Shown: piece after piece, positions 17,895 to 56,403 of the stretch
Layout: the number at the start of each line of letters is the position of its first letter
Numbering within the stretch: the first letter of the stretch is position 1
Assembly (NCBI RefSeq): GCF_012272835.1
Contig: NZ_JAAWWK010000009.1
Location: 1 to 64,000, forward strand
Reading direction: 5' to 3'
DNA from: Spongiibacter thalassae
GTDB lineage: Bacteria > Pseudomonadota > Gammaproteobacteria > Pseudomonadales > Spongiibacteraceae
Length of the DNA stretch: 64,000 nucleotides
The notes under the pieces: model-generated
Database searches by the model: none
What the model saw: the letters and a program-made list of their open reading frames with translations, nothing else
Told to the model about the DNA's origin: nothing
Translations under genes and position numbers: made by a program

Positions 17895-18000
17895 TGGGCT
17901 CAGGATGAGCCTTGGCATGGAAGGCATTCTCAGGATGAGAGTCAGCAAGGGATTGAAGGCGTTGCCAGGAGGCAACTGCCTTCCTGCTACCTGATTTCAC
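17895..18000 (+). ncRNA. candidate CsrA/RsmA-sequestering small RNA (CsrB/RsmZ-like)
   Basis: The gene-free stretch between cyaY and ettA contains a series of hairpins with GGA loops on the plus strand only: GGCTC-AGGAT-GAGCC (17897-17911), ATTCTC-AGGAT-GAGAGT (17926-17942), CAA-GGGA-TTG (17946-17955), and GTTGCC-AGGA-GGCAAC (17961-17976). The last is extended by AAGGC/GCCTT to an 11-bp stem with one bulge. An unpaired ATGGAAGG lies between the first two. CAGGA followed by A/T/C and G is the repeat motif of E. coli CsrB, and GGA in loops is the CsrA/RsmA binding element. The RNA would titrate CsrA. No U-rich terminator follows; a strong palindrome begins at 18005. Confidence 0.6.
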
Positions 18001-55189: not shown

Positions 55190-55390
55190 ATGGATAACTG
55201 CCTGTCCGCCAGTGCGCGTCTGCTGTTGCTAAAACGCCGCCATCGCGCACTCGATGAGGAAATCAAACTGCTATCGGTCAACCCCTGGCAAAACCAGCTT
55301 CTTCTGCAACGCCTGAAACGCGAAAAACTGCGTATCAAAGACAATATCGAATGGCTCAAGAACGAAATGGTGCCCGACATCGACGCGTGA
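55190..55390 (+). CDS. DUF465 (YdcH-like) small protein
   Basis: The 66-residue protein matches DUF465: RRHRALDEEIKLLSVNPWQNQLLLQRLKREKLRIKDNIEWL. The short two-helix sequence ends in the family's LKxxKLxIKDxIE helix. The family is widespread and uncharacterised. Its stop lies six bases before a GacA-box-like palindrome, so the small RNA gene downstream is probably transcribed separately. Confidence 0.85.
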   Translation: MDNCLSASARLLLLKRRHRALDEEIKLLSVNPWQNQLLLQRLKREKLRIKDNIEWLKNEMVPDIDA

Positions 55391-55395
55391 CTCCG

Positions 55396-55421
55396 CGCGT
55401 GTGAGATATATCTCACACGCG
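55396..55421 (+). promoter_or_regulatory. 26-bp palindrome with GacA/UvrY-type box
   Basis: A perfect 26-bp palindrome has the core TGTGAG-ATATAT-CTCACA (55400-55417). This fits the GacA upstream activating sequence of Pseudomonas, TGTAAG-N6-CTTACA, with a symmetrical A-to-G and T-to-C change. Its centre is about 68 bases before the predicted start of the downstream RNA, the spacing expected for GacA-activated rsm genes. A CRP site is less likely because the TGTGA and TCACA halves are 8 rather than 6 apart. Confidence 0.7.
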
Positions 55422-55476
55422 GTGATGACTTTGACGCCTGTCGCCCACTAAGTGGTTTTGGTTAAATACTTCCCAT

Positions 55477-55565
55477 CAGGACGATTCAGGCATTCAATGG
55501 ACTGGATGCGACATAGGAAGTCGAAATTCGTAAAAACCGAGGCACTCGTTGCCTCGGTTTTTTTT
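55477..55565 (+). ncRNA. candidate GacA-controlled Csr/Rsm-type small RNA
   Basis: About 90 nucleotides, with a -10-like AATACT at 55465-55470. GGA motifs lie in loops: ATC-AGGAC-GAT (55475-55485; its first bases are at or just before the predicted start), GCATTC-AATGGACT-GGATGC (55490-55509, one G-U pair), and CGAC-ATAGGAA-GTCG (55509-55523). ACATAGGAAGT fits the CsrA SELEX-type core (ACA-x-GGA-x-GT). A 9-bp hairpin with eight T residues ends the transcript. This is the layout of RsmX/Y/Z and CsrB-type RNAs, which sequester the translational regulator CsrA/RsmA. No reading frame is evident. Confidence 0.7.
55532..55565 (+). terminator. intrinsic terminator of the small RNA
   Basis: ACCGAGGCA (55536-55544) and TGCCTCGGT (55550-55558) enclose CTCGT; eight T residues end the element at 55565. 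The A-run before the stem makes it potentially bidirectional. Confidence 0.92.
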
Positions 55566-55650
55566 CGCCTGACCTTTGGGCGCAGGACTTGCTAGCGCAA
55601 GGACCGGACGACTACACTCTGCTACCCACTCCCACAGCCCTTGCCTATCC

Positions 55651-56403
55651 ATGCCTGACCGCAACTTCGACGGCATTGCCGCACGCTTTCACCACAATAT
55701 TTACGGCAACCCCAAGGGGCAGTTGCGTCTGGCCTTGTGCCAGCGGGAGCTGAGCGCCCGGCTGGGCGACTTTCTCTCTGCGCCGCGCCGAGTGTGGGAC
55801 GCCGGTGGCGGCATCGGGCAGATGAGTGCATGGTTTCTCGAAGCGGGCCATCAGGTCTATCTCAACGACCTGTCCAGCGAAATGCTGGCGCTGGCAAAGG
55901 ACAGCCTGCACTCCCACCTTGGCGACCGCCTGGAACTGGAGTGCACCGCGATTCAGTCAGTCGAGCACTCAAACTTCGACCTCACCTGCTGCCACGCTGT
56001 GCTGGAATGGGTTGACGACGCCCCGGCACTATTGCAAGCCTTGCATCGAGGCCTGCGGCCAGGCGGCTATTTGTCGCTGATGTTTTACAACCTCAACGCC
56101 CTGGTGATTAACAATATGGTCAAGGGCAATCTGTACAAGCTGCGGGACGAAGATTTTGCCGGGCACCCCGGCGGGCTGACCCCACCACACCCCCGCGACC
56201 CCGAAGCAGTATTGACCGCACTGCGCGCCCAGGGCTTTGAGATTGTTGCCAAGCGCGCCGTACGCCTCAGCCACGACCTGATGTCACGCAGCCTGCGCAA
56301 GGAGCGCAGCGTGACCGATATGCTGGAGATAGACTGGCAATACGGCGACCGCGAGCCCTTCTGGGCCCTGGGTCGCTACGTACATGTGCTGTGCAGGCGC
56401 TAG
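55651..56403 (+). CDS. cmoM: tRNA carboxymethoxyuridine methyltransferase CmoM-like
   Basis: The 250-residue SAM methyltransferase begins MPDRNFDGIAARFHHNIYGNPKGQLRLA, a CmoM signature. It has VWDAGGGIGQMSAWFLEAGH (SAM motif I near residue 48), LNDLSSEML, and FDLTCCHAVLEWVDD near 113. CmoM methylates the carboxymethoxyuridine at position 34 of certain tRNAs to the methyl ester. ATG 55651 matches the family start; the longer frame from 55576 is rejected. Separated from the small RNA terminator by 85 bases. Confidence 0.9.
   Translation: MPDRNFDGIAARFHHNIYGNPKGQLRLALCQRELSARLGDFLSAPRRVWDAGGGIGQMSAWFLEAGHQVYLNDLSSEMLALAKDSLHSHLGDRLELECTAIQSVEHSNFDLTCCHAVLEWVDDAPALLQALHRGLRPGGYLSLMFYNLNALVINNMVKGNLYKLRDEDFAGHPGGLTPPHPRDPEAVLTALRAQGFEIVAKRAVRLSHDLMSRSLRKERSVTDMLEIDWQYGDREPFWALGRYVHVLCRR

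Follow-up and report, generated by a model that had tools for sequence, protein, structure and literature searches.

Control of exopolysaccharide and motility is a general attribute of the Csr (Rsm) system, and the RNAs CsrB and CsrC of Enterobacteria carry many more GGAs than three. In Escherichia coli, the binding site of the response regulator UvrY is an inverted repeat of 18 nt, which at csrB reads TGTGAGAGATCTCTTACA and forms a box centred at -183/-182 (PMC4682653). In Pseudomonas fluorescens SS101, RsmY and RsmZ measure 118 and 133 bp respectively and contain eight GGAs each, three of them in predicted loops, and the UAS of rsmY in P. fluorescens is TGTAAGCATTCTCTTACA (PMC4353343). Outside the model genera, lineage-specific Csr RNAs have been described (PMC9927453, PMC9788540), namely Pf1 of Pseudoalteromonas, with a GacA-type site CGTGAGACATCTCTTACA and about 21 GGAs (PMC9927453), and CsrR2 of Alcanivorax, which has six unpaired GGAs and adjoins a ferredoxin gene (PMC9788540). 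Another type of CsrA-binding small RNA is represented by McaS and GadY, which carry at least two GGAs and also pair with mRNAs (PMC7652899).

The window analysed here is a stretch of 64,000 nucleotides from Spongiibacter thalassae, whose genome (4.4 Mb) belongs to the Spongiibacter/Zhongshania group, and positions 55396-55566 of this window very probably form an independent gene for a small RNA of the Csr/Rsm sponge type, predicted to be switched by GacA and to yield an RNA that binds CsrA. An earlier note had read the locus as a short Rsm/Csr RNA, a reading that is now supported by conservation, covariation, box spacing, invariant GGAs and the presence of CsrA, GacA-like and BarA-like genes. 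The RNA (55475-55566, + strand, about 91 nt, with a start assumed to within 1–2 bases) was placed by alignment A1 of 17 genomes and by a match of model R1 (E 3.7e-14, for a sequence that is among the training set of R1). Its upstream neighbour is a gene for a DUF465 protein of 66 aa (55190-55390, + strand; Pfam PF04325, E 9.8e-12) and its downstream neighbour a cmoM-like methyltransferase gene (55651-56403, + strand; Pfam methyltransferase domains, top NCBIfam model CmoM at 216 bits, under the cut-off of 366), both outside the RNA unit.

Like RsmY, RsmZ and RsmX of Pseudomonas, the locus combines an 18-bp palindromic UAS with a short RNA and GGAs in hairpin loops; it differs from them by its length in the genus (87–93 nt), its three conserved GGAs, TGTGAG instead of TGTAAG arms, its other genomic location and the lack of an Rfam match. 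The UvrY box at csrB is comparable with the box found here, whereas csrB is 369 nt long in E. coli MG1655 against about 91 nt, and the two boxes have their centres at -183/-182 and approximately -65, respectively. Pf1 and CsrR2, with about 21 GGAs and six unpaired GGAs respectively, contrast with the three conserved GGAs of this RNA, and McaS and GadY differ in being base-pairing RNAs for which control by a GacA/UvrY box is not mentioned in the passage of the source that treats them (PMC7652899). The Rfam models that the earlier note had proposed for comparison (PrrB_RsmZ, RsmY, CsrB and CsrC) gave no match at gathering score in the window, nor did the Rsm/Csr families match up to E 10 on 261 bases at the locus, while E. 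coli CsrB was recovered at 380 bits as a positive control. The RNA lies outside every Rfam family, and no description of it was found in the open-licence PMC literature, among the matches listed. By its sequence-testable features, the predicted RNA falls among the Csr/Rsm sponges, a functional class of which it is a compact, unusually short and previously undescribed candidate member.

The proposed GacA/UvrY box is a perfect 26-bp palindrome at 55396-55421 (no strand assigned) that contains TGTGAG-N6-CTCACA, exactly as first noticed, with the core TGTGAGATATATCTCACA at 55400-55417. An 18-bp palindrome of the GacA/UvrY type thus stands upstream of the RNA; three of its 18 positions, including one in the arms, differ from the csrB UvrY site of E. 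coli, and its form agrees with that site and with the rsmY UAS of P. fluorescens. The palindrome arms alone do not go beyond chance, since the 4.4-Mb genome contains a single TGTRAG-N6-CTYACA and also a single instance of the reversed control pattern. When the AT-rich centre is included and up to two mismatches are allowed, 17 of the 18 genus genomes contain the 18-mer at least once and the own genome contains it a single time, and the corresponding control search returned no match in 16 of 18. Additionally, the distance from the palindrome to the start of the RNA is 56–57 bases in all 17 aligned genomes.

The -10-like hexamer TTAAAT (55462-55467, + strand, chosen by eye) begins 44 bases past the box core. 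The assumed start lies about 65 bases from the palindrome centre; the earlier note had predicted a start about 68 bases after the palindrome. A generic sigma-70 promoter scan listed no promoter at the locus. Most aligned relatives show CATAAT or GATAAT at this place, and in the seven promoters measured, from two families and with hexamers chosen by eye, the -10 always starts 43–44 bases past the box. On the other side of the RNA, folding and alignment define a 13-bp stem followed by a T-tract (approximately 55532-55565, + strand) that bears out the strong intrinsic terminator proposed earlier, although a generic terminator scan did not list it. The constant box, the -10-like hexamer, the terminator and neighbours that change between genomes all point to an independent gene, with the generic promoter scan negative.

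The element is present in all 18 genus genomes examined (Spongiibacter/Zhongshania group), 17 of which, including that of the window, were aligned after inspection of the regions upstream of cmoM and near the box, and the last of which (G001) was reached by covariance model. Besides the own genome, a DNA similarity search picked up the element in 11 of 17 congeners. In G001, a covariance model built without this genome scores 91.7 bits (E 1.6e-15); its box, TGTGCGATATGTCGCACG, is too diverged for the 2-mismatch search, keeps the same spacing from the RNA and carries A-to-C and T-to-G changes that match between the two arms. When R1 was run on 390 genomes with a threshold of E<=0.01, 98 had a match, of which 81 lie outside the genus and 17 within it; all 17 genus members listed in that output matched, 16 of them being training genomes, and G002 is absent from the output. 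The earlier note had named poor conservation of the GGA loops and palindrome among close relatives as refuting its reading, and this check did not refute it.

In the window, GGAs are located at 55479, 55499 and 55516, and a fourth (55504) falls within a stem; the three are conserved, and the extra stem GGA occurs in some genomes. In alignment A1, the nine GGA columns are invariant in all 17 genomes whereas 1 of the 20 other unpaired columns is, and the mean pairwise identity of these 20 columns is 0.51. The alignment places the GGAs on three hairpins of the + strand: hairpin 1 (55475-55485, AUC-AGGAC-GAU, GGA at 55479-55481), hairpin 2 (55490-55509, loop GGA at 55499-55501) and hairpin 3 (55510-55522, GACA-uAGGA-AGUC, loop GGA at 55516-55518). 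Covariation was scored on a defined structure with 27 pairs in four helices, itself drawn from A1. Across the 17 genomes 98.0% of cells are paired, and eight pairs are changed on both sides against a shuffled mean of 1.9; in 500 shuffles, four of the five covariation measures were never reached and the fifth was reached once. With slid partners the pairing falls to 34–42%, a control that favours the structure since it was drawn from the same alignment. The two-sided changes are distributed as five in the terminator, one in hairpin 1, two in hairpin 2 and none in hairpin 3. All cells of hairpin 1 are paired, the window copy being the one with the double change (A-U replacing G-C); hairpin 2 has 97.8% of cells paired and double changes in two pairs; hairpin 3 has 94.1% of cells paired and no double change. 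Hairpin 3 reads GACAnnGGAUGUC in 12 of the 17 genomes, the window copy being outside these 12, and this sequence is close to the CsrA SELEX consensus RUACARGGAUGU (PMC7652899).

Folding of single sequences gives a weaker picture for the window copy. The folding z-scores are -3.4 and -3.6, and its minimum-energy fold presents two GGAs in hairpin loops for the full RNA and one for the 51-nt core, with hairpin 1 absent from the fold of this copy. When the 17 RNAs are folded as 51-nt cores, 8 of them show three loop GGAs, 6 show two and 3 show one; folded at full length, 10 show three, 5 show two, a single RNA shows one and another shows none. The three GGA-in-loop hairpins claimed in the earlier note hold as a conserved family fold with real GGAs, but not as the minimum-energy fold of the window. 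A test for three loop GGAs is failed by the locus, so that a single-sequence fold would not have picked it out; the test is passed by 5 of the 42,634 overlapping 51-nt segments of the whole window. These form a single cluster at 17896-17979 (+ strand), which may be coding. The case for the predicted RNA depends on comparison across genomes rather than on the lone fold of the window copy: three GGAs are invariant in 17 of 17 genomes within conserved hairpins, with the loop presentation weaker in the fold of the window copy.

The protein components of a Gac/Csr circuit were found in the host genome. It has one CsrA gene, whose product is 86% identical to E. coli CsrA across 56 residues and retains L4 and R44, two residues highlighted for RNA binding (PMC7652899). 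A response regulator with 52% identity to UvrY has UvrY/SirA/GacA as its top NCBIfam model (275.7 bits, just under the cut-off of 280), and its gene lies directly upstream of uvrC (over the NCBIfam cut-off), an arrangement as in E. coli. A hybrid kinase shows 33% identity to BarA over residues 10-908 and has BarA as top NCBIfam model (653 bits, below the cut-off of 890). CsrA, GacA/UvrY and GacS/BarA are thus all represented, the last two identified through their best matches and synteny, with both scores below cut-off.

From these features we infer that the locus is transcribed, that GacA binds and controls it and that its RNA binds and sequesters CsrA. Phosphorylated GacA (UvrY-like), bound to the TGTGAG-N6-CTCACA palindrome with its centre about 65 bases ahead of the start, would activate a transcript of about 91 nt ending at the intrinsic terminator. 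Short hairpins of this transcript would expose three GGAs as mimics of the target sites of CsrA, and by binding CsrA dimers it would relieve the hold of CsrA on its target mRNAs. Neighbouring conserved GGAs of the window are 20 and 17 bases apart (first G to first G), a spacing that would let one CsrA dimer bridge adjacent hairpins by dual-site binding. Three sites might accommodate one or two CsrA dimers per RNA, and high expression would presumably be needed. Three CsrA sites are few for a sponge, and this was counted against the sponge reading.

The neighbourhood of the locus suggests another function, in which the RNA would be the 5' leader of cmoM with the terminator acting as an attenuator, for cmoM lies directly downstream on the same strand in the window and in most congeners. 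However, about 2.7 kb separate the RNA from cmoM in G003 and about 70 kb in G009, and in G085 and G048 the RNA is followed by an opposite-strand HIT-domain gene, not by cmoM. Since the neighbours change in these four genomes and linkage to cmoM is not constant, the leader reading was rejected as extremely unlikely. The interval between RNA and cmoM in G003 (L012) includes a long open reading frame as well as repetitive sequence. A coding reading was also considered and set aside: 5 of the 17 aligned sequences have the AUG of CAAUGGA, which means that there is no conserved start codon.

Other explanations accept a small RNA and assign it differently. It might pair with particular mRNAs, CsrA binding being secondary or absent, as for McaS and GadY, precedents with at least two GGAs (PMC7652899); its shortness, the single copy found and its strong terminator would suit such a role, but its constant unpaired positions are the GGAs, and with 19 of the 20 other unpaired columns variable, a conserved unpaired seed would hardly find a place, so that this alternative appears very improbable. 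It is also conceivable that the CsrA-binding RNA is real and that the palindrome is the site of a regulator other than GacA. Its TGTGA...TCACA half-sites resemble CRP-type sites, in which TGTGA and TCACA are separated by 6, whereas the separation in the box is 8. Additionally, the form of the box is that of the csrB UvrY site (PMC4682653) and of the P. fluorescens rsmY UAS (PMC4353343), and GGAs are on average commoner behind 12 boxes outside the genus than in controls (singly in 5 of the 12), which together make another regulator improbable. A GacA-switched sponge is the reading retained here.

Outside the genus, the best R1 match was inspected in 13 of the 81 genomes, and the box stood at the right distance in two of them (G085 and G048). 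The other 11 matches were rejected: the best box matches near them have 4 or 5 mismatches, and by eye they resemble terminators or tRNA-plus-terminator. G085, from another family, has the order DUF465, box, RNA and then the HIT-domain gene on the opposite strand. In G048, of the same family as G085, the RNA is present twice in tandem (L107, G048:C18, approximately 111479-111788), flanked by a flavin-reductase-like gene and the opposite-strand HIT-domain gene; each copy has its own box and a GATAAT -10-like hexamer, and this local duplication could double sponge capacity. In a sister genus (G018, L036; G019, L055), the box lies 44 bases before the -10, as in the window, and is followed by RNAs of 146 nt with 5 GGAs in G018 and 155 nt with 7 GGAs in G019 (assumed starts). 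The RNA of G018 is directly ahead of cmoM, and a MazG-like gene lies between RNA and cmoM in G019; G018 was unmatched by model R1 and its box is beyond the 2-mismatch search. Common descent of these RNAs with that of the window is possible, with an expansion or shrinkage of sponge sites.

In the own genome, R1 gave a single match at E<=0.01 under the stricter filters of Infernal. Of its 12 near-boxes (at most one mismatch), the box of the locus was the one preceding at least three GGAs and a terminator in a simple scan, and the own rpoS locus has neither a box nor an Rfam match up to E 0.1. A second sponge was sought in these three ways and no candidate emerged; the putative sponge of the locus is the only one detectable in the genome, where a diverged second one could exist. 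A bolder proposition, rather doubtful at present, is that a single three-site RNA of about 91 nt, kin by descent to the sister-genus RNAs of 146–155 nt with 5–7 GGAs near cmoM, is the sole sponge of the genus and carries the entire switch from GacA to CsrA; if true, the number of CsrA sites could be watched growing or shrinking at one locus. For a marine genus, the locus likely provides the RNA that had been missing as a link in the Gac/Csr circuit, and the covariance model finds it where Rfam finds nothing. As an unusually small natural sponge with three predicted sites, it raises the question of how few CsrA sites suffice, and together the tandem copies of G048 and the longer RNAs of the sister genus would allow the evolution of sponge capacity to be compared at related loci.

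Behind the 12 off-genus boxes, the mean best-strand GGA count is 6.2 against 3.6 in controls; 5 of the 12 stand out singly, L048, L049 and L054 are under the control mean, and L045, L046, L050 and L052 are not distinct from controls when taken one by one. L047, L050, L052 and L072, from other families of the order, have GacA-type boxes with two mismatches followed by GGA-containing stretches and no Rfam match at gathering score; the GGA counts of L047 and L072 exceed the controls, and those of L050 and L052 do not singly. A pattern scan of genome contigs returned eight matches, six within Spongiibacteraceae; a match in a Coxiella MAG, which was inspected, and one in Lachnospiraceae, judged from the scan alone, were taken as chance. 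The Coxiella stretch (L073:6350-6640) has TGTGAGATATCTCTCACA, TCAGGA about 60 bases on and then a GGGGAATTCC hairpin, with few GGAs. Counted in favour of the sponge reading is G052, another genome of this order, where a box with a single mismatch to that of the window lies between rpoS and fdxA (both over NCBIfam cut-offs), the neighbourhood of rsmZ in Pseudomonas (PMC9788540, PMC4353343). PrrB_RsmZ matches there (L051:1480-2120) at best with 38.5 bits (E 2.3e-7 for 641 bases) from about 425 bases past the box and with 22.1 bits about 200 bases past it, both under the gathering score of 44, and at these distances the spacing is unlike that of the window. These two matches mark two GGA-rich stretches between the box and fdxA in this genome, perhaps tandem RsmZ-like RNAs under the Rfam cut-off.
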